Shown here piece by piece: positions 25,740 through 42,325 of a DNA stretch of 59,098 nt (position 1 is the stretch's first letter; the number at the start of each line of letters is the position of its first letter). The position numbers and the translations under genes were made by a program. The notes beneath the pieces were generated by a model. The model saw only the letters and a list, made by a program, of their open reading frames with translations. It did no database searches and was not told the origin of the DNA. The stretch is from the NCBI GenBank assembly GCA_016873165.1, contig VGXV01000024.1:1-59098 (forward strand), read 5' to 3'. Source of the DNA: Planctomycetota bacterium (GTDB lineage: Bacteria; Planctomycetota; Brocadiia; Brocadiales; Brocadiaceae).

Positions 25740-26588
25740 ATGACAACGACAACTACCCATTCATTTCTGTATTACAAAGGAAAAGACATTGCTTCCGTAC
25801 TTTTAACATCTCTCTTTTTATTGTTAATTTTTTTTACCGGCTGCAGCTCCCCGGGCATAAAAACTGCCGCTGAAAATACTGAAGCACAAGAAGATCAAAA
25901 TGAGGAGATTGAAAAACCGGACAATATACAAATATCCCAGTTTATCATTGGAATAGGAGATTCGATTGATATTTCCGTTTACCGGCATGACGATCTTCAA
26001 AGATCTGTCCGAGTAAATAATTCCGGCAAAATAATGTTCCCTTTAATTGGAGACGTGCAGGCTGCCGGCATTGGCATCTTTGATCTCAGAGAAGAATTAA
26101 AAGAAAGGCTATCTTATTATATCGTTGATCCGCAGGTTATGGTAAACGTTACCGGCATACAAAGTAAAAAGGCCATTGTACTCGGAGAAGTTAATTCGCC
26201 CGGGTTTTTTGTGCTTGATACTGACATCAGCGTTATAGAAGCAATATCCAGGGCCGGGGGCGCCACAAGCAACGCGAAGCTGGGAAACGTCGTTTTAATG
26301 AGAAGGGCTAAAGAAGATAAACCAAAGATTTACGCTTTAAACATGAACGACGTGTGGAAAAAAGGCGATGTTTCACAAAATATGATGTTAGAACATGGGG
26401 ATGTCGTATTTGTCCCAAGAATGGTTATATCGAACATTGCAAGGTATTTTTCTTATTTTCAACAGATATTCAGCGCCATTATTAGTTTTGAAAGCGGCGT
26501 AATTCTATATCCTCAGGCAAGAGATGTATTAACTCATGGAGAAACAGAAACAGGAGGCGGAACTACAATTAACATACCTGTGAACTAA
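25740..26588 (+). CDS. Polysaccharide export lipoprotein (Wza/SLBB type)
   Basis: A 282-residue outer-membrane export protein. A hydrophobic segment ends in a lipobox-like FFTGC near residue 35, then an acidic linker. The Poly_export domain follows (FIIGIGDSIDISVYRHDDL near 65, VNNSGKIMFPLIGDVQAAG near 89). One SLBB repeat is present (VLGEVNSPGFFVLDTDISVIEAISRAGG near 147-175). It would form the periplasm-to-surface channel for the polysaccharide made by the genes that follow. It has only one SLBB repeat, fewer than E. coli Wza. Confidence 0.9.
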   Translation: MTTTTTHSFLYYKGKDIASVLLTSLFLLLIFFTGCSSPGIKTAAENTEAQEDQNEEIEKPDNIQISQFIIGIGDSIDISVYRHDDLQRSVRVNNSGKIMFPLIGDVQAAGIGIFDLREELKERLSYYIVDPQVMVNVTGIQSKKAIVLGEVNSPGFFVLDTDISVIEAISRAGGATSNAKLGNVVLMRRAKEDKPKIYALNMNDVWKKGDVSQNMMLEHGDVVFVPRMVISNIARYFSYFQQIFSAIISFESGVILYPQARDVLTHGETETGGGTTINIPVN

Positions 26589-26634: not shown

Positions 26635-28086
26635 TCATAGTCTTCTCTTTAAAGTAAAAACATTGACAATTGAAAATGTATAGAAGTGATAGTAATACCT
26701 GACAGCAACAAAAAGTAAGATATTTAGCAACATAACGCTGACCATATTTGAAAATGCTGTGCCATTTATACCATATTTAGGGATAAATACCAGATTTAAC
26801 GTTATGTTTACTATGGCAACAAAAAACATTATATTGCGGAAGATTTTTTGCTTTCCCGTCATGTTTAAAATATATGCAACCGGACCTGTCATGGTATTCA
26901 CCAGTTGTCCGGCAGTCATCATAATTAATGCGTTTTTCCCAAGTTGAAATTCTTCACCAAAGATTTTGAGAAAAAATGAAGGAAAAACAAAAAACATAAC
27001 CAGTACCGGAGTCGTTATCCAAAAAATGAGTTTTGTTACTTGTTGGGCTAGTTTTGCCAGGGATTTAATATCACCGTTCCCATAAAATTGGGCAAACTTA
27101 GGCGCCGCGATGCTATTAAATGCAAACAGCGGAATACTTGTCAGCGTTGACAGTTTAAAAGCGATATTATAAATTCCCACATCGCTTTCCGTCTTAAAAG
27201 CGCCAAGCAGTATTTTATCAGTCCATCCCATAAATAAACATAACGAGTTCGATATCAATATAGGCAATGATATATTAAGGAGAGTCGTATATTTAATTCC
27301 TGCTTCTTCTGGCACAATTGCAGGAAAGTTTAATTTGCTCAGCCATAAAAACACTGAAAGAAAAAATACAATTGAAATACTCACAGAATACGCAACAAAC
27401 GGCATATATTCCCACCTGTTGATAAAAAGAGCTATTGCCAATATGACTACGGAAAACAGTGGTATGGATAAGTCCTGTAAAAATGCGTATTCTTTAATTT
27501 TCTTAAGAGCCCTCAGACTTTCCGAATTTATGAAAACAATAACCATCGGAAGGATGATAAAAGAAACTATCTGGAAATAGGCCGAAAGGTAGGTTTTGTG
27601 AAACAGATTTTTTGCTATGCAGGGAGAAAGGAAATATAACAGGATACTGATAAAGACGCATGCGGGAACAATTATTTTTATTGCTTTCATATAGATATCA
27701 TGAATACGACCACTTTTGTTTTGAGAAGAATATTCCGCAATAAATCTTAATAATGTAGTCTCTATGCCAAGCCTCCCAAATACAGCGCAAATATTCAAAA
27801 ACGTGAGGAAAAGGGCAAATATTCCTGATGTATGGGCTCCGTATTTCCTTGTAATTATCAGCATTAATAAATAGGAAGCAAGTATTCCCGTTATCTTGAA
27901 AGCGAAAGAAATAAAACCGCTTTTAAGAAGTTCTTTCAGATTAATATCGCTTAATTTGGAAATAAATTTTTGGATTATTTTGGGCAAAGGCATAGGCGCA
28001 AAAAGCAGGTTCCGTGTGTATATGAAATATTCAAGATAGCGTGGAATGTTCCCGGAAATTATGGTATATTTGCTTTTTTCAGGCAA
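26635..28086 (-). CDS. Polysaccharide flippase (Wzx/MATE-like)
   Basis: A 483-residue, strongly hydrophobic protein with about 12-14 membrane helices starting near residue 58. The pattern (KITGILASYLLMLIITRKYG, IGIETTLLRFIAEYSS, YNIAFKLSTLTSIPLFAFNS) is that of the MOP-superfamily flippases that turn lipid-linked sugars across the inner membrane. It is the only minus-strand gene in this polysaccharide region and converges on the Wza-like gene. The gap of 46 bases between the two stops holds no clear terminator. Confidence 0.9.
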   Translation of the reverse strand: MPEKSKYTIISGNIPRYLEYFIYTRNLLFAPMPLPKIIQKFISKLSDINLKELLKSGFISFAFKITGILASYLLMLIITRKYGAHTSGIFALFLTFLNICAVFGRLGIETTLLRFIAEYSSQNKSGRIHDIYMKAIKIIVPACVFISILLYFLSPCIAKNLFHKTYLSAYFQIVSFIILPMVIVFINSESLRALKKIKEYAFLQDLSIPLFSVVILAIALFINRWEYMPFVAYSVSISIVFFLSVFLWLSKLNFPAIVPEEAGIKYTTLLNISLPILISNSLCLFMGWTDKILLGAFKTESDVGIYNIAFKLSTLTSIPLFAFNSIAAPKFAQFYGNGDIKSLAKLAQQVTKLIFWITTPVLVMFFVFPSFFLKIFGEEFQLGKNALIMMTAGQLVNTMTGPVAYILNMTGKQKIFRNIMFFVAIVNITLNLVFIPKYGINGTAFSNMVSVMLLNILLFVAVRYYYHFYTFSIVNVFTLKRRL

Positions 28087-28198: not shown

Positions 28199-29800
28199 AT
28201 GAAAAATGGTGAGAAAGTATTTGTAATAGGGATAGATGGCGCAACTTTTGATATTATCGGCCCATGGCTGGAGCAAGGCAAATTGCCACATTTAAAATCA
28301 CTCATAGATAACGGATGCTCAGGCATCCTGGAATCTTCCGTTCCTCCGATAAGCCCGGTGGCGTGGCCTTCTTTCTTTACCGGTGTCAATCCGGGAAAAC
28401 ACGGGATATTTGATTTTATAGAAAAATCGAAAACAGACCAAAGCATTCGTTTTATGAACCGGACCAATTGTAAAGCGCAGCCTATCTGGGGGTATCTTAA
28501 TCAGGCAGGCTATACAACAACAATAATAAACATTCCAGGCACATATCCTCCTGATAAAATTGATGGATTTATGATTTCAGGATTAGACACCCCGAGCACA
28601 GACAGTGAATTTACCCATCCCAGTGAATTTAAAAACGAATTAAAAGCGGCAGTTGGCAATTATATTATTGACCTGGAACATAACCCCGTTTTAATGAATA
28701 ACCCCCGAAAATACCTTGAACATATGGTTGATATGGTCGGGATGCGTGAAAAAACCGCGCATTACTTAATGACCAAATATCCCGTTGACTTTTTTATGGT
28801 AGTTTTCACTGCAACAGACCGGGTGCAGCATTCGTTCTGGAGATATCAGGATAAAGAACATCCGGGGTATTCTCCAGGATTGGAGGACGCAATATATACG
28901 GTATACAAACGGGTTGATGACGCCATTGGAAGACTTCTGGACAATCTGGATGAATCAGCAAGTGTAGTTGTAATGTCCGACCACGGTATGTATGGCGTAT
29001 ATAAAAGCGTTGACGTAAACCGATGGCTGCTTGAAAATGGTTTTCTTGTCTTAAAGAAAGAATCCCCCGTTTTAAAAATAAAGGACTTCTACAAAAGGGC
29101 CAAAAGAAAATATCTGAAAAAAGCGGAAAAAATCCTCTTTGACCATTATATTGACTGGTCTAAAACGCGCGCCTATTTTCTTGGTTCATGGGGAAATATT
29201 TTTATCAACGTAAAAGGGAAGGAGCCCTATGGCATTGTAAATCCGGGAAAAGAATATGAATCAATACGAGAAGAAATCATACGTAAACTGAGTCCTCTCA
29301 CCGACCCTGAGAATGGAAAACCTGTCATTAAAACCATTTTGAAGAAAGAGGATATTTTTACCGGTGATTATTTTGATAAAGCGCCGGATCTCGTCATAAT
29401 GTGGAATGAAAAATACAACAGCATCAAAACTCTTTACGAAAAACTGAGATCCGGTGGCCGACACGGCGTCATTCAACCGTACAAACAATTGTGCGGAGAT
29501 CATGCGCCAAATGGAATATTCGTTTATAAATCGCCTCATGTGAAAAAAGGAATGACCAACATGAAGGCAAAAATTATTGACCTGCTGCCGACAATCCTTT
29601 ACACAATGGATGTCGCAGTGCCAAATTCTATCGATGGAAGAATTTTAAATGAAATATTTACCGAAGAATTTCTTAGTAAAAAATCAGCGAAATTTGACAA
29701 CAACATGTATATGTTCGAGACAGAAGAAGCATCAGTTTACTCAGATGAAGATAGCCAAAAGATAGCAGAACGGCTTACGGATCTTGGTTATTTCGATTAA
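28199..29800 (+). CDS. Alkaline-phosphatase-superfamily phosphodiesterase/transferase
   Basis: A 533-residue type I phosphodiesterase/nucleotide pyrophosphatase-like enzyme. Metal-site signatures are GIDGATFDII (D13), the nucleophile region SPVAWPSFFTG at 52-62, VVMSDHGMYG near 258 and CGDHAPNG near 432. No signal peptide is obvious, so it may act in the cytoplasm or on a membrane-associated lipid-linked substrate. Such proteins recur in exopolysaccharide loci, where they may transfer or remove phosphate-linked groups. It appears to begin a run with the radical SAM and glycosidase-like genes up to a terminator at 33613. Confidence 0.85.
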   Translation: MKNGEKVFVIGIDGATFDIIGPWLEQGKLPHLKSLIDNGCSGILESSVPPISPVAWPSFFTGVNPGKHGIFDFIEKSKTDQSIRFMNRTNCKAQPIWGYLNQAGYTTTIINIPGTYPPDKIDGFMISGLDTPSTDSEFTHPSEFKNELKAAVGNYIIDLEHNPVLMNNPRKYLEHMVDMVGMREKTAHYLMTKYPVDFFMVVFTATDRVQHSFWRYQDKEHPGYSPGLEDAIYTVYKRVDDAIGRLLDNLDESASVVVMSDHGMYGVYKSVDVNRWLLENGFLVLKKESPVLKIKDFYKRAKRKYLKKAEKILFDHYIDWSKTRAYFLGSWGNIFINVKGKEPYGIVNPGKEYESIREEIIRKLSPLTDPENGKPVIKTILKKEDIFTGDYFDKAPDLVIMWNEKYNSIKTLYEKLRSGGRHGVIQPYKQLCGDHAPNGIFVYKSPHVKKGMTNMKAKIIDLLPTILYTMDVAVPNSIDGRILNEIFTEEFLSKKSAKFDNNMYMFETEEASVYSDEDSQKIAERLTDLGYFD

Positions 29801-29847: not shown

Positions 29848-29926
29848 GTTGTTAAAAGTCGCCGAAGGCCTAATTTAACCTTTAACATAATGGGGTAACA
29901 TAATAAAATATCCCCTTTTGCATTTT

Positions 29927-31294
29927 ATGAAAATTTTATTAGTTCAATCTTACCTTAAGGGAGATGTTTTCCCGCCGGTATATCCTTTGGGCATTTCATA
30001 TGTCGCGAGCTTTCTCTCCCGGCATGAGGTACGGATTTACGACCCGAACCTTTCATTGAATCCAACGGATGATTTAACAAAGGTAATTCAGGATTACCAT
30101 CCCCAGGTAATTGGTATTTCACTGCGAAATATAGACAATCAGTCACGAAAAAAACCTCTTAACTACTACGGGGATTTTCAGGATCTTTTGCATACAATAA
30201 AAAAAACAGCCCCATCCGCACACATCATCGTTGGCGGCACAGGATTTTCCATGTTTGCCAGGGAAATAATGGACACTAATTCAGAAATAAATTATGGCGT
30301 ATACCTGGAAGGCGAAGAAACATTATCCGAACTGGTAGACAACCTTGACCAACCGGACAAAGTAAAAGGAGTATATTACCGCAAAAACGGCACAGTCTGC
30401 TACACAGGATCAAGAATGCTTCCTCAATTTGAAAAATTTCCGGCGCCAAGAAGAGACATTGTCAATCCGGTTCCTTACAAAAGCGGAGAAGCGTCAATCG
30501 GAATTCAAACACAAAGAGGGTGTCCGTTGCACTGCGCATATTGCAATTACCCGGCATTAAACGGAAACCGTTTAAGATCAAGATCTCCTGAAAACGTTGT
30601 GAACGAAGTAGAGGCTCTTGTCCATACATACGGAATACAGCATTTTATGTTTGCAGATTCTCTTTTCAACAGGCCGCTGGAACATGCCGCCGGCATATGT
30701 AAGGAAATAATCCGGCGAAATCTTCAGGATAAAATCAATTGGATGTGCTGGCTGGACGTGCGGGGCGTTACGAAAGACTTTTTGCATTTATTGAAAAATG
30801 CCGGTTGCAGCGGAATCTCCTTTTCTCCTGATGGATTATCAACATCTTCATTAACTTCCCTGGGAAAAGGCATAAAGGAAAGAGACGTTTGGAATCTGTT
30901 GAAACTCATTGCCACTGATCCGCTCACGAAAGACATTAAATTCATTATTACCATGTTTATAAATTCACCCGGTGAAACATATTTCGGGATGATAAAAATG
31001 CTTTTTTACAAATTCGTTTCTCTTATTGTTAAGAAAATTTTAAAAAGAAACATAAACGTCCAGGTGGGGTGGATACGATTGGAACCGGACACTGAAATAT
31101 ACAACATCGCAATTAAACAGGAAATCATCTCGCCGGCCAAATCGCTTCTTCCTGCGAATACCGACGACATTAAAAATTTATTTTATTTAAATCCGTCTTT
31201 AAAATTTTTAGACATAGCTGTTCTCACCATGGCATCTATAGCTGAATCTGTTAAAGGCAAAATAAAACAAAAAATAATCGGGAGGGCTTCATAA
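29927..31294 (+). CDS. B12-binding radical SAM protein (polysaccharide region, copy 1)
   Basis: About 455 residues. The N-terminal cobalamin-binding domain (LLVQSYLKGDVFPPVYPLG, then IIVGGTGF near 103) is followed by the radical SAM motif C199-x3-C203-x2-C206 (CPLHCAYC). It differs from the other three radical SAM proteins of the window outside these motifs. It overlaps the next gene by one base, and the two are translationally coupled. Possible roles are methylation or rearrangement of a sugar or lipid precursor; the substrate is unknown. I used ATG 29927; a TTG at 29918 is also possible. Confidence 0.85.
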   Translation: MKILLVQSYLKGDVFPPVYPLGISYVASFLSRHEVRIYDPNLSLNPTDDLTKVIQDYHPQVIGISLRNIDNQSRKKPLNYYGDFQDLLHTIKKTAPSAHIIVGGTGFSMFAREIMDTNSEINYGVYLEGEETLSELVDNLDQPDKVKGVYYRKNGTVCYTGSRMLPQFEKFPAPRRDIVNPVPYKSGEASIGIQTQRGCPLHCAYCNYPALNGNRLRSRSPENVVNEVEALVHTYGIQHFMFADSLFNRPLEHAAGICKEIIRRNLQDKINWMCWLDVRGVTKDFLHLLKNAGCSGISFSPDGLSTSSLTSLGKGIKERDVWNLLKLIATDPLTKDIKFIITMFINSPGETYFGMIKMLFYKFVSLIVKKILKRNINVQVGWIRLEPDTEIYNIAIKQEIISPAKSLLPANTDDIKNLFYLNPSLKFLDIAVLTMASIAESVKGKIKQKIIGRAS

Positions 31295-33594
31295 TGCTGC
31301 ACAAAATACCACGATCTATTTTTGGCATTACCTTACTTCTTTTGATGCTGTCCTTTGGTTTTTCCTTTGACTCTGTCATCTATGCATGGGATGACGCCGC
31401 GCTTGATTCTCCTTTTGGATTTACCACATCCTTTTATGCGCCAAAAAGGAAAAGCAACGAGGAAATGATGAAAAAAAGAAAAAATTTCGACTTCGACGGC
31501 AAGCCCGGAGACAACCCCCCTTACGCAACTGCAATAGAACTTGGCGTTAAATGGGAACGGCAGTCAAACCCGGTTCTGGATTGGTCTTTTGTGCAAAGAG
31601 ATAAAGACTCAATTATAAACGGAAAATTCAACTGGGATATCCCGGATAACTTTTTAAAGAGAATTCCTGAAGATTTAAATATTGTTGTCACTATTAATGT
31701 CAATCCAATGCTATTGCGCCCGGGCACATGGGAGTTTGTCGTTCCGCAAGCAAAAGAGTCTTATATCGAATTTGTTAAAAAAGCAGTTGAACGATACGAT
31801 GGCGACGGAGAAGACGATATGCCAGGGCTTAAAAACCCTGTAAAATACTGGCAGGTTGAAAATGAACCCGAAGTTCAAATCAAAAAGAAACAGGGAGGCG
31901 GACCGGGAGGTCAAGGAGGTCAGGGAGGGCCACCGCCCGGCATGAACCAGAGAAGAGGGCCGGGAGGACCTGGAGGCCCCGGAGGGTTTGGAGGTCAAGT
32001 ACCTCAGGGACGCGGGCCTCAAGGGCCGGGAATGATGGGGGGACAAACTCAAAAGGGGAGTGAATGGATGGGATTTCTGGAACTCATCAATATTACTTCA
32101 GATGCCGTAAAAAGCGCTGATGAAAGCGCAAAAATACTGAGCGGAGGAATAGTAAGCCCACCGCCGCAAATGAGGGCTGAGCTTATCAATGAATTTTGGC
32201 TTCCGTTAATCAAGGCGCTTGACGAGAATTCCATAGACATATTTGATTTTCACTGGTTTGACGATAGCATTATCGATTCTTATGAAACTTACAAAACATT
32301 GCGTAACGCCCTTGACGAAAACGGATTAACCAATGTTGATATATGGATGACTGAAACAGGCTCAAGCAGTAAAGAAGGCGAAAAGGGACAGGCCATTCAA
32401 GTGATAAAACGATATGTATTCCCTCTTAGTTACGGTGTTAAAAAGATATTTTGGGCATGGGCATTAGTGGAAGGATGGCCGCCGTTTGATTGCCAATCAA
32501 TGTTTGAATACACCGGTTTGATATATGACGGCAATTGTCAGGGAGACCCCGGTTTCGGTGTAAAAAAACTGAGTTTTTACGCATATAAGCAGATGACGGA
32601 AAAACTCAAGGACTCACAGTGGGATAATATAGAGACAATTTCCAACGGCAAGAACAGCATATACGCATATAAATTCCCTCAGGAAGAGAAAGATGTTTAT
32701 GTGCTGTGGTATGAAAAAACCAGCGGAAAAACGAGCTTTAATTTAAAAGTTGCCGAAAATAGCAAGTACACGGTAACAGAAGCAATACCAAATGTTTCCG
32801 AGGGAAAACAACTGAGTTCTGCTTCAAAAAATATTTTCACCACAAAAACTCTGACGTCTTCAGGCACCACACTTTCCATTGAAATATCTTCTGTGCCTGT
32901 ATTCGTTGAGGGGAAGAAGGGAGATGATTCGGAACAAGCCTCTGAAGCTGAAGAAACCGATGAAAGCGAAGATGATGAGGAAACATCAGTATCTGAGGAA
33001 GAAACTGATGAGGGCGAAGATGAAGCATCGGAATCTGAAACGGAAGAAGGCACAGAACAAAAACCTACCATGGAAACCCAGCGCATGCAGGGGCAACCAC
33101 CGGCGGGAGGGAAACAAATGCCGCCTCAGAGACCTGCCATGGGAGGACCTTCAGGATCACCTCAACGCGGACAACCTATGCCGCCGGGTGGACAAACGCC
33201 GCCGCAACGCGGACTACCCCCTGATAGCGGTAAATCGTACCGCGATTTGGAAGTCTGGCAAAGTTCAATGGATTTGGCCGTTGATTGTTATAATTTGGCA
33301 AAAGACATTCCGGAAGGAGAAAATGACACTTTAGCCGGACAATTACAGCGCATCGCTTCATCCATCCCCGCAACTATTGCAAAGGGGCAGGCAACACAAA
33401 ATCCAAAAGAGTTTTTTAATCATCTTTCAATGGCAAATGGATCTGTTGCAGAACTGGAAACATATCTTCAAATCGCCGAACGGCTGGATTCTATAGATGC
33501 AAATCGTATAAAACAGCTTAAGAAAAAAGCTGAAGCGATTTCAAGTTCAATCAGAAACATGCAAAAACCTTTTGCTGATAAAATACAACATTGA
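31294..33594 (+). CDS. Exported GH-A-type glycosidase-like protein fused to a four-helix S23/IVP domain
   Basis: A 766-residue multi-domain protein. A signal peptide covers about 1-31. Residues 35-535 look like a clan GH-A TIM barrel: acid/base E191 in WQVENEPE and a possible nucleophile E354 in IWMTETGSS, followed by a small beta domain. A Gly/Pro/Gln-rich insert (about 200-253) sits right after the acid/base motif. Residues 541-590 are almost all acidic or Ser/Thr, 591-645 are Pro/Gln/Gly-rich, and 648-757 match the S23 / 23S rRNA intervening-sequence four-helix bundle (SYRDLEVWQSSMDLAVDCY...FFNHLSMANGSVAELETYL). I have not seen this fusion described. GGGAGGG before the start gives translation coupled to the radical SAM gene. 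Confidence 0.75.
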   Translation: MLHKIPRSIFGITLLLLMLSFGFSFDSVIYAWDDAALDSPFGFTTSFYAPKRKSNEEMMKKRKNFDFDGKPGDNPPYATAIELGVKWERQSNPVLDWSFVQRDKDSIINGKFNWDIPDNFLKRIPEDLNIVVTINVNPMLLRPGTWEFVVPQAKESYIEFVKKAVERYDGDGEDDMPGLKNPVKYWQVENEPEVQIKKKQGGGPGGQGGQGGPPPGMNQRRGPGGPGGPGGFGGQVPQGRGPQGPGMMGGQTQKGSEWMGFLELINITSDAVKSADESAKILSGGIVSPPPQMRAELINEFWLPLIKALDENSIDIFDFHWFDDSIIDSYETYKTLRNALDENGLTNVDIWMTETGSSSKEGEKGQAIQVIKRYVFPLSYGVKKIFWAWALVEGWPPFDCQSMFEYTGLIYDGNCQGDPGFGVKKLSFYAYKQMTEKLKDSQWDNIETISNGKNSIYAYKFPQEEKDVYVLWYEKTSGKTSFNLKVAENSKYTVTEAIPNVSEGKQLSSASKNIFTTKTLTSSGTTLSIEISSVPVFVEGKKGDDSEQASEAEETDESEDDEETSVSEEETDEGEDEASESETEEGTEQKPTMETQRMQGQPPAGGKQMPPQRPAMGGPSGSPQRGQPMPPGGQTPPQRGLPPDSGKSYRDLEVWQSSMDLAVDCYNLAKDIPEGENDTLAGQLQRIASSIPATIAKGQATQNPKEFFNHLSMANGSVAELETYLQIAERLDSIDANRIKQLKKKAEAISSSIRNMQKPFADKIQH

Positions 33595-33674: not shown

Positions 33675-35117
33675 ATGAACTATTCTCTTATTCATAATAA
33701 AAAATTAAACATCTGCCGATGGATTATTGTTATCCCTTTTGGCATAGCAATATCTTCCACTGCATTTATTAATCCACTGGTAACCCTCATCCTGCTTAGT
33801 ATTACTTCTGTGGTGGCTCTTTCCATCTTCAGGCCGCATATTCCTTATCTTTTTGCAGTGATCCTTATTTCCTATATCAGCATTGAAATCAGAATATGGG
33901 GCGATTATCGAACATTTTTCAACCTTTCGGAACCGTTCATACTTTATTGCCTGTTCTGCTGGTTTATATCCCGCGGTTTAAGGATTTCAACGGAAGATTT
34001 TCAAATCAGGAAATATTTCCCTCTTATATTGCTATACGTGTGGGGATGCATTTCTATCCTCTGGAGTACTGAAAAAACAATGGGAATATATTATATGGCA
34101 ATGTTTTTTATCGCCTTATGCTTCTTCTTTCTCACCATAGTAAACTTAAACAGCTTTTTAAAAATTAAAATTGCCATCGCTTTTTTTGTCATTATGGGAT
34201 TCGTCAGCAGCATCGTATGCTATTATTCGCTTATATCAAATAAAACAATTGAGGACATATTATACCATTACAATGAACATCTGGTCCGTTTTGTATTCAA
34301 TCCCGAACAGATGTTGCGCGGGCAAGGATTCATGCACCCGCTTGCCACTGCATACTACCTTTCCCTGTCACTCATGCTGCTGCTTGGATTTATTTATACG
34401 GGAAACAAATTAACAAAATTTTTCCTGGCAATCATTGCGATAGTAATATTCGTAGCCTTGTTAACGACCCTGAGCAAAGGACCGTTACTTTCTTTGCTAT
34501 GCGGGCTTTATATTTTTACCATCTTAAATGCCTCTGTCAATAAACACGTTATTATCGTATGGACGCTTATTCTTTCTCTTATTGTATTTGGTTTTTTCCT
34601 CTCAAGAATCCCTACGAATGATTTTGCAAAGGCACTGGATTATACCTCCAAGACATCCACAGAAACCACCGATGAATCTTCTTCCTTAGGTTCGAGAATA
34701 AAGCGGTGGAAGAAAGGCATTCTTTCTATAAAGGATCATTACGGTCTGGGCGGCGGATCAGGTGGTTTTTTTACGTATCTTGATCCGGAAATCTGTTTTG
34801 ATAATTTATACGTTCATATATTCGCTGAATATGGATTGGTCGGCGTATTGTTGTGGATATGGTTTTTGATCTTGTCATGCAAAAGATTTATTCAGGCATA
34901 TATCAATTGTATCTCCACTGAATATAAAAAATGGATGCAGATCTATATTGCGGGTGTAGCAACGTTACTGCTCAATGCGGTTACCTCTTTTTCTCATACC
35001 TTTTTGCCTATATGGTTTTATTTGGGGATTGGACACGCTATGTCAATTGCAATTGACCGTGAAAACAAGAAAAGATCAGAAAACAAAAGAATGGATACCT
35101 TAAAATGTCGCTTATAA
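33675..35117 (+). CDS. O-antigen ligase / polymerase family membrane protein (Wzy/WaaL)
   Basis: A 480-residue protein with about 11-12 membrane helices. A large periplasmic loop near 310-385 contains SRIKRWKKGILSIKDHYGLGGGSGGFF and a following NLYVHIFAEYGLVGVLLW, the usual O-antigen ligase/polymerase signature. It would either polymerise repeat units or attach them to a lipid. It overlaps the Wzz-like gene by 13 bases, so the two are translated together, which favours a polymerase role. Confidence 0.88.
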   Translation: MNYSLIHNKKLNICRWIIVIPFGIAISSTAFINPLVTLILLSITSVVALSIFRPHIPYLFAVILISYISIEIRIWGDYRTFFNLSEPFILYCLFCWFISRGLRISTEDFQIRKYFPLILLYVWGCISILWSTEKTMGIYYMAMFFIALCFFFLTIVNLNSFLKIKIAIAFFVIMGFVSSIVCYYSLISNKTIEDILYHYNEHLVRFVFNPEQMLRGQGFMHPLATAYYLSLSLMLLLGFIYTGNKLTKFFLAIIAIVIFVALLTTLSKGPLLSLLCGLYIFTILNASVNKHVIIVWTLILSLIVFGFFLSRIPTNDFAKALDYTSKTSTETTDESSSLGSRIKRWKKGILSIKDHYGLGGGSGGFFTYLDPEICFDNLYVHIFAEYGLVGVLLWIWFLILSCKRFIQAYINCISTEYKKWMQIYIAGVATLLLNAVTSFSHTFLPIWFYLGIGHAMSIAIDRENKKRSENKRMDTLKCRL

Positions 35118-37210
35118 AACAATTCCTCGATGTAATCTCCAGAAGAAAGAAAATTGTTATTATTGTTGTGCTGGTTTTCACTTTATTGCCGCAATTACTG
35201 TCTTTTTCTTGCCGGTCTGTATATAAGGCTTCTTCACAACTCTGGATGCATACGAATGCGACTCAAACACAATACATGGGCTTACCGGCAAATATCAGTA
35301 ATTTCGAATATTCAGACAAAAACAAACTGGACAACACATTCTTTGCAATGCTAAAAAATCCCAAATCCCTGAAACGAATTATTTCAACTATGAATATTAC
35401 TGATGAAAAAGGCAGATTGGTTGAACCTGATAAATTTCTCATCGGAAGCGAATTCAACCTTTTTTTCAGCAGTGAAGGCATCGGAGTCGATGTTGTAGAA
35501 AGCGGTGATGTCATTGAAGTATCAGGCTACTCTTCTACTCCCGAAAGAGCAGAAAAGGTTGCAAATGCTGCCATTGATGCCTTTATGATACTGTATGCGG
35601 ATATTTTCAAAGACGAAGCGCGATTGGCGCAAAAAGCAATGAAAGGGCGGCTCGAATATGTAAAGAGAGAATTAAGAAAACTGGAAAGAAGATTGTTCCG
35701 GTATAGAAAAAAATACGAAATTATCGATGTTACTATGGAAATAGAACAGGGACTAAAACAATATTATAGCTATATTGACCTGATTCATCAAAATACGAAA
35801 ACTGCGGAAGAAGAGAAAAAGTCTCTGGAAGAGGTAACCAAAACCATCGCTGTAATTCCGGAACTCTACTTATCCGGCAAGGCCATCGAAAGAAATCCTA
35901 CATTAGAGGCATATAAACAGGAAATAGTATCTCTTGAAACAAATATCGCAAAACTAAAGGTTGATTTTACCGAAGCACACCCCGACGTTATTGCCACAAG
36001 GATGCAAATAGCAGAATATAGAAAGGCAATACATAAAGAAATTGAAAGAATCTTAGGGGATGAAAATTTTTCCAGAAATTCATATTATACCGATTTGGAA
36101 AAACGTTCTTTTGATACGAAAATGAATCTCGAAATCTATAAAACAACCGACTCTATACTCCGCAGTTTGGCAGATATCATTTACAAAAAAACGTTAAATG
36201 TAAAGAAAATAGAACTGTTATTTAATAAAATAGAACGTCAGCAATCATCTTTAAATACGGAGTTCACCAATCTGACAAAAGGCATTTCAGATACAGAAGT
36301 GCTATTAAGCATGAGTCCTTCAAACCTTGCGGTGCTCAACTATGCTGATGCATCAACACAGTCTTCTCCCTGTTTTCCGAACAGAATAAAGTTTTTTGCC
36401 GTCTCCTTGTTTCTCAGCATTGCCATAGCTTTTTCATTAATTTTATTGGAAGAATCTACCGACAAATCAATTAAAACACTTGCAGAAACACGCAAGGACT
36501 TTTATGGGAATGTGCTCTACGGTTTGCCGAAATATAAAATGATGTTTGGTCTCAACATCATCCCGAAAAAACTGCTTACTTATTTCCCAACACTCAAAGA
36601 AGAACTGTCATTGCTGAAGCAGAGGAACTTTGTCAGAAAAGTATTAAAAAACACCATGGTCAGGAATTCTGTCTGGAACATTATCTCCGGCGCAAAAATC
36701 GTTTCCGGCGATACAATTGCGCGGTCAATTCTATTTACCGGTGCGGAGAATGATGTAGGAACCTCCACTATCGCTCTCCTGGTGGCAAAAGAATTGACGG
36801 TTTCCGGCAAAAAAACTCTCTTGCTGGATATTTCTTCAACTTCTGAATGGCATTTACCGGCAAAAGACACCCTTTCGGTTAACAAAAAAATAATTCTCAA
36901 AAATCTCATAAGAAAAAGTGATTTATATGATATCGATATTTTACATTTTAAAGAAATTACCGACAGCCCCAGTATTGCCATGATTGACGGTATTTCCGAA
37001 CAACTAAATAATCTGGAATATGATCATATTATTATTGATACTGACCCTGTTATTGCATGCAACGATACCCTATTCATGTCTGCATTGGCAAACGTTGTCC
37101 TTTTGACAGCAAAACTCCGGAAAACCACCAAAGAAACAATCGAAGACTCTTTTGCCAAATTCAAACATTTGAAAGAATCTAAAATAGGAATTTTGATCAA
37201 CCAGATTTAG
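35105..37210 (+). CDS. Wzz/GumC chain-length protein with degenerate BY-kinase domain
   Basis: A 701-residue inner-membrane protein with a helix at about 17-34, a periplasmic coiled-coil region (about 170-400) and a second helix at about 428-447. A cytoplasmic P-loop domain follows (from about 530). The Walker A position reads TGAENDVGTST, lacking the Lys of the usual GKS/T, and the Walker A' reads LLLDISSTS instead of LLIDxDxR. Only the Walker B-like IIIDTDP near 642 is normal. The C-terminus has no tyrosine cluster. It probably sets polysaccharide chain length, with a kinase domain that cannot phosphorylate or bind ATP normally. Confidence 0.85.
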   Translation: MSLIKQFLDVISRRKKIVIIVVLVFTLLPQLLSFSCRSVYKASSQLWMHTNATQTQYMGLPANISNFEYSDKNKLDNTFFAMLKNPKSLKRIISTMNITDEKGRLVEPDKFLIGSEFNLFFSSEGIGVDVVESGDVIEVSGYSSTPERAEKVANAAIDAFMILYADIFKDEARLAQKAMKGRLEYVKRELRKLERRLFRYRKKYEIIDVTMEIEQGLKQYYSYIDLIHQNTKTAEEEKKSLEEVTKTIAVIPELYLSGKAIERNPTLEAYKQEIVSLETNIAKLKVDFTEAHPDVIATRMQIAEYRKAIHKEIERILGDENFSRNSYYTDLEKRSFDTKMNLEIYKTTDSILRSLADIIYKKTLNVKKIELLFNKIERQQSSLNTEFTNLTKGISDTEVLLSMSPSNLAVLNYADASTQSSPCFPNRIKFFAVSLFLSIAIAFSLILLEESTDKSIKTLAETRKDFYGNVLYGLPKYKMMFGLNIIPKKLLTYFPTLKEELSLLKQRNFVRKVLKNTMVRNSVWNIISGAKIVSGDTIARSILFTGAENDVGTSTIALLVAKELTVSGKKTLLLDISSTSEWHLPAKDTLSVNKKIILKNLIRKSDLYDIDILHFKEITDSPSIAMIDGISEQLNNLEYDHIIIDTDPVIACNDTLFMSALANVVLLTAKLRKTTKETIEDSFAKFKHLKESKIGILINQI

Positions 37211-37267: not shown

Positions 37268-37293
37268 ATGTGTTTGCAAACAAAGGTAGCGAA

Positions 37294-38256
37294 ATGCCCG
37301 ATTTAAACATAAAAAACATTATTAATTTTTCTGAAACAGCAAAGGTGTTTTTTCTCTACTCTCTTCGGTATTCAATCCCTTACTTGCCGTTAAACCTAAA
37401 ACACACCCTTGCTGACAGACTTGCTGCTGTGTCATCACATGGAGAAAAAGCCGTAGTTATGAAAAGCGAATTGGAATTGCTGTTTGGCAAAGAAAAGTTT
37501 ACTGGCTCGGAAATCAGCGAAATAATAATAGAATGCCTTCGTAATTTCAGAAAAGATCTTTTTGAAATATGGTCATTCCCAAAATTGAATAGCAGAAAAG
37601 CAGAAGACCTTTGCGCCATTGACGGAATGGAACATTTGGAAAACGCCCTGAAAAAAGGCAGCGGGGTGATAATAGCGCTTTGCCACTTTGGCTCATACAA
37701 GATGATACTCCCCTGCCTTGGGTATAAAGGATATAAAATAACACAGGTCGCTGCGAATCCTCTCGATTTAACGGGCAAAGACAAGTCAATCGTAAAAAAC
37801 AAGACTATGGAAATTGAATTTCAATGCGAGAAAAGTCTTCCTGCGCATTTTTTTTACATAGGAACCACACCAAGACAAATTTACCGGGTTTTACAAAACA
37901 ACGAAATACTTGTTATGTCACTTGACGGAATATTGGATCCCAATAGAATCTCCGTACCCTTTTTACAAAGAAAGGTAAGGCTCTCCCCCTCCCTTGTAAA
38001 AATCGCAGAAAGAACAAAAGCAACGATATTGCCTGTTTTCACGGTAAGGGAGAAAAACGGCAAACACAGGATTATCATTGACAATGAAATCCCGTTAGAA
38101 AATGGCGGCGATAAAGAAAAACAGGAAATAAATGTATTATCAAAGTTTGGCAGTTTAATGGAACGGTATGTTAGAGAATTTCCAAGTCACTATCTCTGGT
38201 ATTTATACAAGAACAAAACAGAGCCTCCGCCTATCGGCAGTATCATAATTGATTAG
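37294..38256 (+). CDS. LpxL/HtrB-like acyltransferase with altered HX4D motif
   Basis: About 320 residues, similar to lipid A late acyltransferases. It carries a hydrophobic N-terminus, ALCHFGSYKM near 128-137, IYRVLQNNEILVMSLDG near 203 and VRLSPSLVKIAERTKATILPVF. The catalytic motif normally reads HX4(D/E). Here H131 is followed at the fifth position by Lys (HFGSYK), so the acidic partner is missing. The protein might still acylate through a different residue or have another role. It probably adds an acyl group to a lipid or glycolipid made by this locus. ATG 37294 is preferred; a GTG at 37270 would add 8 residues. Confidence 0.78.
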   Translation: MPDLNIKNIINFSETAKVFFLYSLRYSIPYLPLNLKHTLADRLAAVSSHGEKAVVMKSELELLFGKEKFTGSEISEIIIECLRNFRKDLFEIWSFPKLNSRKAEDLCAIDGMEHLENALKKGSGVIIALCHFGSYKMILPCLGYKGYKITQVAANPLDLTGKDKSIVKNKTMEIEFQCEKSLPAHFFYIGTTPRQIYRVLQNNEILVMSLDGILDPNRISVPFLQRKVRLSPSLVKIAERTKATILPVFTVREKNGKHRIIIDNEIPLENGGDKEKQEINVLSKFGSLMERYVREFPSHYLWYLYKNKTEPPPIGSIIID

Positions 38257-38300: not shown

Positions 38301-39743
38301 GTGAACAAAAAAGCTACCTTTATCGCGCCATATGATGATTTAATGGCATACGGCATCAGAATCCTTTCATCATCCTTGAGAAAAGAAGGGTTTTCAACGG
38401 AAATTATATTTACGCCGCATATTTTAAAACAAACGGATGCCCATTCTATTGCCTCATTAACGGATACCATAAAAGAGATGACCTATGATTCATACTTTGT
38501 GGGAATATCATTTTTCTCATGCCATTTCAATGCAGTAAAAACACTTACGGAAGCATTGCGGAACAAAATTGACATTCCCATAATGTGGGGAGGGAAACAT
38601 ATTTCCGCCCGGCCTGAAGATGCCGCAGGGTTTGCCGATATTGTCTGTATTGGTGAAGCGGAAATCGCAATAAAAAACCTTCTCAACGCAATGAGAAAAA
38701 ACGAAGATTATTCCAATATAAACGGATTTTGGTTTCTCGAAGATGGAAATTACAAAAAGAATCAGCTTGCCCCCATCGTCGAAGACCTTGATCTGCTGCC
38801 ATACCCCGATTATTCTTTAGAGGGGCATTATCTTTGGGATGGTAAAACAATGCACAAAATGACCAGGGAATTATTATGCGAGCATTTGAAAATAGTCGGA
38901 ACGGTAGTCTATCAAACCCTATCTTCACGCGGATGTCCGTATAGCTGCACCTATTGTTCCACCTTTAAAGCCCTTTATTCTGACAGCGGATATCTGAGAT
39001 TTCGCACCGCGGAAAATGTCATTGGTGAACTGAAAGAAATGAAATCCCGTATTCCCGGCATGCAGGCAATAACGTTCTGCGATGACAACTTTTTTGCCCT
39101 GAAAGAAGATCAATTGGAAAAATATGCCGCGTTATATAAAAAAGAAATCGGTTTGCCGTTGCGTTGTCTGGCACATGCGCATGATATCAATAAGAGGAAG
39201 TTAGAAATACTTGTTGATGCCGGTATGAATGAAGTACAAATTGGCATACAGACAGGCAGCGAAAAAACCAGAAAGCTTTATAAAAGAGGCCCTTCTTGCG
39301 ATAAAGTTTTGGATTCCGTCAGATTAATAAACCAATTCAAGGGAAAACTCATGCCCTTCTATGATTTTATTATCGACAATCCGTTTGAAGAAGAAGAAGA
39401 TCTCATTGAGACTCTGCATATGATTCAAAAGTTCCCCAGACCTTATCGCTTGAACGTATTCTCTCTTATTTTTCTCCCCGGCACTGAATTACAAAAAAGA
39501 GCGCAGGAAAAAGGGCTTATTATTGACATGACACGACAATTTGAATCGAGAAAAAAGAGTTATATTAATTTCCTTTTTTACCTCTATTGCCGCCCTATTC
39601 CACTATGGATTATGGGCATACTCGTTTCAAGACCAATGTTAAAGATAATGAAACACAAATTTATAGTTGATCTTTTGTATTTCATAAGGGATTCAATAAA
39701 ACGACTGGTAAAGGGCAAGGCCGATGCGTGGGCTCCGGAGTAA
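38301..39743 (+). CDS. B12-binding radical SAM protein (copy 2)
   Basis: 480 residues. The cobalamin-binding domain (FVGISFFSCHFNAVK, then MWGGKHIS near 95) precedes the radical SAM motif C212-x3-C216-x2-C219 (SRGCPYSCTYCS). The strand FCDDNFF near 255 is typical. The start is GTG 38301 with AGGAGG 12 bases upstream. It is followed 11 bases later by the GT9 gene, so it likely works on the same glycan or lipid. The reaction cannot be assigned. Confidence 0.87.
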   Translation: MNKKATFIAPYDDLMAYGIRILSSSLRKEGFSTEIIFTPHILKQTDAHSIASLTDTIKEMTYDSYFVGISFFSCHFNAVKTLTEALRNKIDIPIMWGGKHISARPEDAAGFADIVCIGEAEIAIKNLLNAMRKNEDYSNINGFWFLEDGNYKKNQLAPIVEDLDLLPYPDYSLEGHYLWDGKTMHKMTRELLCEHLKIVGTVVYQTLSSRGCPYSCTYCSTFKALYSDSGYLRFRTAENVIGELKEMKSRIPGMQAITFCDDNFFALKEDQLEKYAALYKKEIGLPLRCLAHAHDINKRKLEILVDAGMNEVQIGIQTGSEKTRKLYKRGPSCDKVLDSVRLINQFKGKLMPFYDFIIDNPFEEEEDLIETLHMIQKFPRPYRLNVFSLIFLPGTELQKRAQEKGLIIDMTRQFESRKKSYINFLFYLYCRPIPLWIMGILVSRPMLKIMKHKFIVDLLYFIRDSIKRLVKGKADAWAPE

Positions 39744-39754
39744 GATAAAAACAG

Positions 39755-40786
39755 ATGAGTAGCAATATTTTATTAATCAAGACACATGCTTTCGGCGATG
39801 TATTGCTTACTACTCCGGCAATACGCGCAATTTACAAAAATAACCCGGCAGGTAAAATTTACTATTTTACCTGCAAGTGGTCTTCAGGGGCGCTGTATAA
39901 TAATCCCTATATTACAAAAACTTTTGTATTGGACGATGACGCACTGTTTGGAAGAAAATTATATAAAATTCTTCCTCTCATTATAAAATTAAGAAGATAT
40001 AAATTTGAATCTATCATTATTTTCAGCGCATCGAAATTCATCCATTTTCTTTCATGGTTGATAGGAGCGCCAAAAAGGGTGGGGTTCGGCAATAGCAGTT
40101 TTATTACCCACAAGGTCAACCCGTCAGTATTACAAAATCACTATGCCGCCGAAGCATACAATACATTATTGGAACCACTATCTATACGGAATGATGGAAC
40201 AAAACTCGATTTTCAGACAAAAGAAGTATGCCTCCCTGAAAATTTGAATAATTTTCTCGAAAAATATAAACCGAATATTATCGGACTTTTTTGTGGCGGC
40301 GGGAAAAATCCCCGCGATACGGTATTGACAAAACAATGGGGCGCTAAAAAATTCATTGAACTTGCAAAATTGCTTTCTGCCGATGGATACGGATTCCTGC
40401 TTTTTGGTTCGAAAGATGACTGCAAAGTAAATGCGGCAGTGAAAGACGAACTCAAATATTCTGCTTTTGATTTGAGCAGCCAATATTCTCCAAACGAAGC
40501 GGGATATTTAATGAAAATGTGCAAACTTTTCATTACCAACGATTCCGCCCCCTTTCATATTTCTTATGCGCTTACTATCCCGACTGTCTGTATCTTTGGC
40601 CCCAGCAATTCGAAATTGCTTTCACCGCAATTGCCATTTTGCAGACACATACAAAGTAAGGCAGAATGCAGCCCTTGTTACGGAAATGATATTTTCAGCG
40701 GATGCACAAACCCTGTTTGCATGGAAAGTATTTCTGCAAATGACGTTTACAAAGAATGCAGGTCTCTGTTAAGTAAAAAAATTTAA
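39755..40786 (+). CDS. Glycosyltransferase family 9 (heptosyltransferase-like)
   Basis: A 343-residue GT-B fold enzyme of the heptosyltransferase family. The N-terminal IKTHAFGDVLLTTPAIRAIY is the family opening, and the C-terminal FITNDSAPFHISYALTIPTVCIFGPS is the donor-binding region. A cysteine-containing tail (SPCYGNDIFSGCTNPVCM) matches WaaF/WaaC relatives. It probably adds a sugar to an LPS core or other lipid-linked glycan at the cytoplasmic face. It lies between two B12 radical SAM genes in a compact run. Confidence 0.9.
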   Translation: MSSNILLIKTHAFGDVLLTTPAIRAIYKNNPAGKIYYFTCKWSSGALYNNPYITKTFVLDDDALFGRKLYKILPLIIKLRRYKFESIIIFSASKFIHFLSWLIGAPKRVGFGNSSFITHKVNPSVLQNHYAAEAYNTLLEPLSIRNDGTKLDFQTKEVCLPENLNNFLEKYKPNIIGLFCGGGKNPRDTVLTKQWGAKKFIELAKLLSADGYGFLLFGSKDDCKVNAAVKDELKYSAFDLSSQYSPNEAGYLMKMCKLFITNDSAPFHISYALTIPTVCIFGPSNSKLLSPQLPFCRHIQSKAECSPCYGNDIFSGCTNPVCMESISANDVYKECRSLLSKKI

Positions 40787-40855: not shown

Positions 40856-42325
40856 GTGAAAGTCTTACTCATCAATCCTCCCTATTTAAAAAAATTCTCG
40901 CGTCCTCAGCGGAGTCCCGCTGTGACGAAGAGCGGCACTCTGTATTTTCCGATGTGGCTGGCATACGCCACCGGCGTTTTAGAACAGAAAGGGTTTGAAG
41001 TTGACCTCATAGACGCACCAGCCGATAACTTTTCTATAGAAAACATCATTGAAAAAACCGGTACATTTCAACCAAACCTTATCGTTCTTGATACAAGCAC
41101 ACCAAGCATTGATAATGACATTACTGTCGCCCGCAAACTCAAAGAAACATGCCCAGGTGCATTTATAATACTTGTCGGAACACACGTATCAGCGCTCCCG
41201 GAAGAAGTGCTTAACAAAGACACATGCATTGACGCAATCGCCCGAAACGAATATGATTACACGCTTCCCGATCTCGCCAAAACCCTCTCGGAAAAAGGCG
41301 ATTTAAAAAACGTTCAGGGAATAAGCTACAGGAACGGCAGCAAAATCATCCATAATCCCGGAAGACCCTATATTGAAAATCTCGATGAATTACCGTTCGT
41401 AAGCACGGTGTACAAAAAATTTCTCCGGATAGAAAATTATTTTAATCCCAACGCTCTCTACCCTATGGTCACCATTACCACCTCAAGAGGATGCCCTTTC
41501 CCATGCACCTTTTGCGTTTATCCACAAACGTTAATGGGGAGAGGGTTCCGGCAAAGAAGCATTGAAAATGTTGTAGAAGAGATGGAATATATCACCAAAA
41601 ATTTCCCTCAGGCAAAGGCAATTTTCTTTGAGGACGATACGTTAACCGTGAATAAAAAACGATGCAAGGAACTTGCCGAAGGCATTCTGAAAAAGAAAGT
41701 TAACATCTCATGGACGGCAAATGCCAGAGTCGGCCTGGACTATGAAACGATGCAAACAATGAGGATAGCGGGCTGCAGGTCTCTATGTGTAGGGTTTGAA
41801 AGCGGAAGCCAGCAGGTGCTGGATAACATGAAGAAAAAACTCAGTCTCAGCGAAATGGAATCTTTCATGGCAAATGCGAAAAAAGCGGGCATGTTAATAC
41901 ATGGCTGCTTTATGGCAGGGCTTCCGGGCGAAACAAAAAAAACCCTTCAGGAAACATTGCAACTTGCAAAAAGGCTGAACCCGGACACCGTTCAGTTTTA
42001 CCCCGTCATGGTATATCCCGGAACAGAAGCATATACATGGTATAAAGAAAAGAGATTGATAACTACCGACAATTTCTCCGAGTGGCTTACGCCGGAAGGC
42101 TTGCATAACACCGTAATCAGCACGGAAGAGTTATCTTCTTATGATCTTGTCAAATTCTGTGACGATGCAAGAAGGTCTTTTTATTTAAGACCGGGCTATC
42201 TTCTTTACAAACTGAAACAAATGATTGTACATCCCGGAGAAATAAAGAGGACGTTAAAATCCGCAAAAACATTTTTCAAATATCTGCTGAGAGGCTCTGA
42301 CATAAAACCAAAAGCCCAATGTTAA
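40856..42325 (+). CDS. B12-binding radical SAM protein (copy 3)
   Basis: 489 residues. The cobalamin-binding domain (LLINPPYLKKFSRPQRSP, then ILVGTHVSALP near 105) precedes C213-x3-C217-x2-C220 (SRGCPFPCTFCV). The strand IFFEDDTLTV and the later LCVGFESGSQQVL are normal for the family. It starts at GTG 40856. The RGxGFRxRSxENVVEEM stretch is seen in many polysaccharide- and lipid-associated B12 radical SAM proteins. It appears to close the polysaccharide run. Confidence 0.88.
   Translation: MKVLLINPPYLKKFSRPQRSPAVTKSGTLYFPMWLAYATGVLEQKGFEVDLIDAPADNFSIENIIEKTGTFQPNLIVLDTSTPSIDNDITVARKLKETCPGAFIILVGTHVSALPEEVLNKDTCIDAIARNEYDYTLPDLAKTLSEKGDLKNVQGISYRNGSKIIHNPGRPYIENLDELPFVSTVYKKFLRIENYFNPNALYPMVTITTSRGCPFPCTFCVYPQTLMGRGFRQRSIENVVEEMEYITKNFPQAKAIFFEDDTLTVNKKRCKELAEGILKKKVNISWTANARVGLDYETMQTMRIAGCRSLCVGFESGSQQVLDNMKKKLSLSEMESFMANAKKAGMLIHGCFMAGLPGETKKTLQETLQLAKRLNPDTVQFYPVMVYPGTEAYTWYKEKRLITTDNFSEWLTPEGLHNTVISTEELSSYDLVKFCDDARRSFYLRPGYLLYKLKQMIVHPGEIKRTLKSAKTFFKYLLRGSDIKPKAQC

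Follow-up and report, generated by a model that had tools for sequence, protein, structure and literature searches.

A predicted GH39-like glycosidase fused to an S23/IVP four-helix domain in a polysaccharide locus of the anammox genus Kuenenia

Results

The fusion gene and its locus

The window, by which we mean the whole stretch of DNA analyzed (59,098 nucleotides), belongs to the anammox genus Kuenenia, and its relevant features are listed in Table 1. An intact open frame at 31294..33594 on the plus strand encodes a protein of 766 residues, in which a signal-peptide-like N-terminus, a glycosidase-like barrel, a low-complexity linker, and an S23/IVP domain follow one another. The start of the gene shares one base with the stop codon of the upstream B12-binding radical SAM gene (TAATG), and a Shine-Dalgarno-like gggagg stretch is present, in agreement with the translational coupling proposed in a previous sequence-only reading of this DNA. 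Neither BzaD (TIGR04385, 261 bits) nor the ladder-lipid family TIGR04072 (227 bits) matched the upstream product above its cut-off. Three B12 radical SAM genes share this one locus. The nearby Wza-, Wzx-, Wzy-, and Wzz-like genes and the glycosyltransferase family 9 gene place the glycosidase gene inside a polysaccharide synthesis and export cluster, which is the setting of PslG-type enzymes. The radical SAM and glycosidase genes are also coupled, and adjoin similar genes, in G040, which belongs to another genus of the family; the glycosidase there has no S23 domain. Among the 33 family genomes, seven possess a close ortholog of the radical SAM gene and seven possess the glycosidase gene; six have both.

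Table 1. Features of the fusion gene and of the surrounding polysaccharide locus
Feature	Position	Strand	Evidence
Wza-like polysaccharide export protein	25740..26588	+	PF02563 + SLBB
Wzx-like polysaccharide flippase	26635..28086	-	PF01943/PF01554
Type I phosphodiesterase/sulfatase-like protein	28199..29800	+	PF01663, E 5e-48
B12-binding radical SAM protein, coupled upstream gene	29918..31294	+	Pfam B12-binding + Radical_SAM
Signal-peptide-like N-terminus, residues 1-32	31294..31389	+	Hydrophobic core, possible cleavage after IYA, read from sequence
GH39/PslG-like GH-A (beta/alpha)8 barrel + C-terminal beta-sandwich (predicted), residues 33-541	31390..32916	+	Profile, AlphaFold, Foldseek
E191, predicted acid/base, NEP motif	31864..31866	+	Invariant in 32 family members; aligned with PslG NEP Glu
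Gly/Pro/Gln-rich loop after NEP motif, residues 200-255	31891..32058	+	Residues 202-252 predicted disordered
E354, predicted nucleophile, TETG motif	32353..32355	+	Invariant in 32 family members; aligned with PslG STEWG Glu
Acidic low-complexity stretch, residues 542-592, net charge -24	32917..33069	+	Sequence composition
Pro/Gln/Gly linker, residues 593-645	33070..33228	+	Sequence; length variable
S23/IVP four-helix domain, residues 646-766	33229..33591	+	PF05635, predicted fold, dN/dS
T694 to K697, at the N and E positions of the NIAEG motif	33373..33384	+	Compared with 65 standalone S23 proteins
Wzy/O-antigen ligase-like membrane protein	33675..35117	+	PF04932
Wzz/chain-length determinant fused to BY-kinase-like domain	35105..37210	+	PF02706, TIGR03007
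LpxL-type acyltransferase	37270..38256	+	PF03279
Second B12 radical SAM protein	38301..39743	+	Pfam
Glycosyltransferase family 9	39755..40786	+	PF01075
Third B12 radical SAM protein	40856..42325	+	Pfam

The glycosidase barrel

A Pfam search with residues 1-540 matched no glycosidase model at E<=1, the GH39 family model included, and the assignment of the barrel therefore rests on profile and fold comparison. A profile built from eight family members matched the GH39 beta-xylosidase 1px8 (E 4e-5) and PslG (E 0.005), and aligned the glutamates of the NEP and TETG motifs with the corresponding glutamates of PslG, in which Glu165 serves as the acid/base and Glu276 as the nucleophile (PMC11912335). 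The AlphaFold model (pLDDT 84.2, pTM 0.85) consists of a barrel and a C-terminal beta-sandwich, and its best Foldseek matches were GH39 5z3k, PslG 9g17/5bx9, and GH39 5jvk. In the predicted structure, the putative catalytic glutamate pair lies after strands 4 and 7 of a (beta/alpha)8 barrel, as in the GH-A clan. The sequence-only reading had assigned the barrel to GH-A, with E191 in NEPE and E354 in TETGSS as the catalytic pair and a Gly/Pro-rich loop following the acid/base residue. The two glutamates, which are invariant in an alignment of 32 family members, and the loop were found where it had placed them; its GH-A assignment gained nothing from Pfam but is reached, at GH39/PslG, by the profile and the fold. 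The assignment of the barrel to the GH-A enzymes, with a predicted retaining-type mechanism, is fairly firm. The family is wide, with 306 related stretches passing tblastn confirmation in one scan of the genome contigs.

The Gly/Pro/Gln-rich loop differs in length among the three Kuenenia orthologs and is missing in the Kuenenia paralogs. The relative from Candidatus Magnetomicrobium (L065, 5995-7692), 47% identical, has a low-complexity insertion of another composition directly after the NEP motif, and hence this position seems to acquire disordered inserts independently. In two relatives from another genus of the family (L060, 6537-8444; L061, 7856-9517), a beta-sandwich-like segment (TSAVPN..GKDV...PVFVE) is located N-terminal to the barrel and is preceded by helical repeats, so that the domain order is apparently permuted. 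The window genome also encodes two tandem barrel paralogs with neither the S23 domain nor the Gly loop (L059, 5777-7354 and 7385-8842). They follow a malate-dehydrogenase-like gene, and K. hertensis has one paralog there (L062).

Identity and altered residues of the S23 domain

Residues 650-753 matched PF05635 (E 1.4e-27, 96.4 bits; cut-off 33.8), and the domain also matched TIGR02436 (84.7 bits; cut-off 24) and the solved S23 protein 2gsc (E 2.3e-13). The S23/IVP identity, for which the sequence-only reading had suggested an HMM check, is upheld by both family models. The model of the domain comprises four helices (pLDDT 92.5) and superposes on the chains of 2gsc with a TMt of 0.91-0.93 (rmsd 1.2 Å at 0.93), showing the four-helix fold of the solved members. 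The setting is different from that of the family, since the domain is part of a protein of 739-766 residues, not a standalone ORF of about 110-150 residues. No Rfam match was found in 24000-46000, and thus no 23S rRNA intervening sequence of the kind that harbors the original S23 members was seen there.

The fused domains also depart from the standalone proteins at signature positions. The NIAEG motif in helix 2 is replaced with TIAKG in all three fused proteins. Among the 65 standalone S23 proteins compared, the residues lost in the three fused proteins are conserved at 100% (N694), 98% (E697), 88% (R701), and 83% (R685). W655, Q683, R686, S690, I695, A696, G698, G716, and E720 are kept. The net charge of the fused domains is -1 to -3, whereas that of the standalone ones averages +0.9. 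The loss of near-invariant residues suggests that the fused domain has probably taken on a new role in place of the ancestral one, and it weakens the expectation of the sequence-only reading that the fusion may reveal what the standalone bundle binds.

PMC4990558 describes S23 proteins as having no known function and, citing Lin et al. (2006), presents one of them, 2gsc, as a toroidal homopentamer built from four-helix bundles. The solved S23 structure 2rld likewise contains five chains. Homology links the family to Avd, which serves the reverse transcriptases of diversity-generating retroelements as an accessory protein (PMC10053308). Our model matched Avd (4dwl) with a TMt of up to 0.87, and Avd in reverse-transcriptase complexes (8ub7 series) was also matched; the statement of the sequence-only reading that S23/IVP proteins lack a known function is therefore incomplete. 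No reverse transcriptase was found with Pfam among the window ORFs scanned.

Conservation and selection

The fusion architecture is common to all three Kuenenia species compared, and the proteins are 78-81% identical. One of the genomes carrying it is a single contig of 4.4 Mb, in which the neighboring genes on both sides match. An alignment of the three orthologs is gap-free in the barrel and in the S23 domain; the lengths of the Gly loop and of the linker differ. The N-terminus (residues 1-32) evolves fast, with 50-56% identity. The acidic stretch and the Pro/Gln linker pointed out in the sequence-only reading are both present. The former is, however, much shorter in the two sister species, and the acidic half of the linker carries a net charge of -23 in the window species versus -8 and -9 in the sister species; the strong acidity is mainly particular to the window species, which refines that description.

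The dN/dS values among the three species were 0.11-0.13 for the S23 domain, 0.05-0.12 for the barrel, and 0.16-0.35 for the linker. The synonymous divergence of the S23 domain is near 0.9-1.0, and in all three species the domain is free of indels and stops. The S23 part is thus under strong purifying selection. In the S23 tree, the fused clade is sister to one standalone S23 protein of the same family (support 96/84) on a long stem of 0.83 changes per column; the tree was built on few columns, and the placement is moderate. Rapid change along the stem and constraint thereafter are the pattern expected of a change of function. Separate translation of the S23 domain from an internal start was considered and rejected, because the window species and G031 have no in-frame start at the domain border; of the three species, K. 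hertensis alone has an ATG at that position.

Rarity of the fusion and standalone S23 genes

A search for other proteins with both domains, as proposed in the sequence-only reading, supported the rarity of the architecture. No further fusion appeared in 80 glycosidase loci, and none of the 79 outside Kuenenia has an S23 domain in the glycosidase ORF. In 392 genomes of the phylum, the ~150 best-scoring S23 matches included no convincing fusions besides those of the Kuenenia trio; weaker-scoring fusions may lie below this range. S23 proteins occur in 70 of the 75 genomes of the class, and apart from the Kuenenia fusions those listed lie in frames of up to 224 residues. Long frames in G237, G336, G294, G327, G323, and G175 were examined as fusions and rejected; they are mostly G+C-rich, gene-unlike frames upstream of the internal start of a standalone S23 gene, or slight extensions of one. 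In the plasmid collection, S23 proteins were standalone only, and no report of an S23-glycosidase fusion was found in the open-access literature.

The window genome contains standalone S23 genes as well. Two are located co-directionally between RND-efflux-like genes (L005, 1462-1836; L006, 1468-1842), one among aminotransferase/sugar genes (L003, 1483-1884), and one among flavoprotein-like and UbiD-like genes (L002, 1486-1854), the latter two also co-directional. Around these four genes, the spacing ranges between a slight overlap and about 110 bases; the neighbors were identified by eye. They look like small cassettes placed between genes of unrelated operons. Such co-directional genes in narrow operon gaps suggest how the fusion may have arisen. 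A further copy with an internal TGA (L007, contig C2, 34286-34588) is probably a decayed gene.

Discussion

We give about an even chance to the explanation that the fusion protein as a whole is an exported glycosidase of the locus polysaccharide whose S23 bundle has been exapted as an oligomerizing module. The enzyme would most likely be an exported, retaining-type endoglycosidase acting on the polysaccharide of its own gene cluster. Its job may be the editing, release, or clearance of misplaced polymer, by analogy with GH39 PslG in Psl synthesis; PslG affects the production, and is proposed to affect the release, of its polymer (PMC9075953). In an ancestor of the genus, a standalone S23/IVP gene would have been fused in frame to the end of the glycosidase gene, with a flexible low-complexity linker between the two. 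Secretion or sorting tails occupy the same C-terminal position in other relatives of the enzyme, indicating that the C-terminus is a usual site for accessory modules. The bundle would then have been remodeled from NIAEG to TIAKG, and selection would have kept it as an accessory module. Its most likely task would be to assemble the enzyme into homo-oligomers, such as a ring of about five subunits as in the solved S23 proteins, which could let several catalytic heads work jointly on a single polymer. Of the roles compatible with the fold, self-assembly into a ring is the simplest. Some observations count against this explanation. The linker is long and poorly conserved, implying that a fixed geometry of the catalytic heads is not required, and the solved S23 protein 2gsc is titled as cytosolic. 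The changes at R685, N694, E697, and R701 could also abolish the pentamer if these positions make subunit contacts. We are more tentative about the bolder version, in which an intracellular S23/IVP protein was recruited as an extracytoplasmic scaffold for a multivalent glycosidase ring and the loss of the NIAEG residues reflects an ancestral activity given up, with only the scaffold retained; we think it somewhat less probable than not.

The main rival sees the S23 domain as an adaptor for docking or targeting. It would bind the polysaccharide, an envelope protein, or another assembly protein encoded at the locus and hold the enzyme at the synthesis machinery, without having to self-assemble. 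The long, flexible linker and the sorting tails of the relatives would suit such a role, the remodeled signature residues suggest a new ligand, and PslA, PslD, and PslE help to keep PslG at the inner membrane (PMC9075953). No partner is visible, however, and the five chains of 2gsc and 2rld, the former described as a pentamer in PMC4990558, favor self-assembly; we regard docking as unlikely but as a serious competitor. The S23 part could instead be a functionless passenger of a neutral gene fusion. The standalone genes in the gaps of unrelated operons would make a chance in-frame fusion easy, and the linkers are unconserved, but the low dN/dS at such a synonymous divergence, with the domain intact in three species, makes this improbable. 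An Avd-like role in binding nucleic acid or ribonucleoprotein, in this case extracellular DNA or RNA in the biofilm, is suggested by the resemblance to Avd, both in 4dwl and in the reverse-transcriptase complexes. We consider it very improbable because of the negative charge of the fused domains and the loss of R685 and R701, and the window ORFs scanned contain no reverse transcriptase. The possibility of an artefact of assembly or binning, the former of which the sequence-only reading had raised and which could be entertained because the window comes from a 191-contig draft, is practically negligible. Two other species share the architecture, with matching gene order on both sides, and the single-contig 4.4-Mb genome refutes an assembly error.

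S23/IVP proteins are abundant, and a fusion that is fixed in one genus and maintained by selection allows one of them to be tested in a defined setting and cell compartment, next to a defined partner activity. The natural change of N to T and of E to K, at positions otherwise nearly invariant, points to residues on which the function of standalone S23 proteins may depend. The locus also supplies anammox biology with a candidate enzyme for polysaccharide processing in bacteria that are grown as biofilm granules.

Among known systems, Avd (4dwl) shares the fold class of the S23 domain but is only 8-10% identical to it, and no retroelement gene was seen at the Kuenenia locus. The S23/IVP proteins of PF05635/TIGR02436, such as XCC0516 (2gsc) and BT_0352 (2rld), have the four-helix fold and the family profile in common with the Kuenenia domain; they stand alone and possess NIAEG in the 65 compared, whereas the Kuenenia domain is C-terminal and possesses TIAKG. 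CmGH1 and other GH39 beta-glycosidases (5z3k, 5jvk, 1px8), barrels with a catalytic glutamate pair, include the best fold matches, but the identity over the fold alignments is 10-14% and, as described above, the Kuenenia protein lies beyond the reach of the Pfam glycosidase models. PslG, the retaining endo-beta-glucosidase of the Pseudomonas aeruginosa Psl locus, differs in its sequence (14% identity over the fold alignment) and in its solved chains of about 415 residues, which have no S23 domain. It is nevertheless the second-best fold match, shares the GH-A barrel and the NEP/TE(W)G glutamate pair, and, like the Kuenenia enzyme, is encoded inside a polysaccharide biosynthesis locus.
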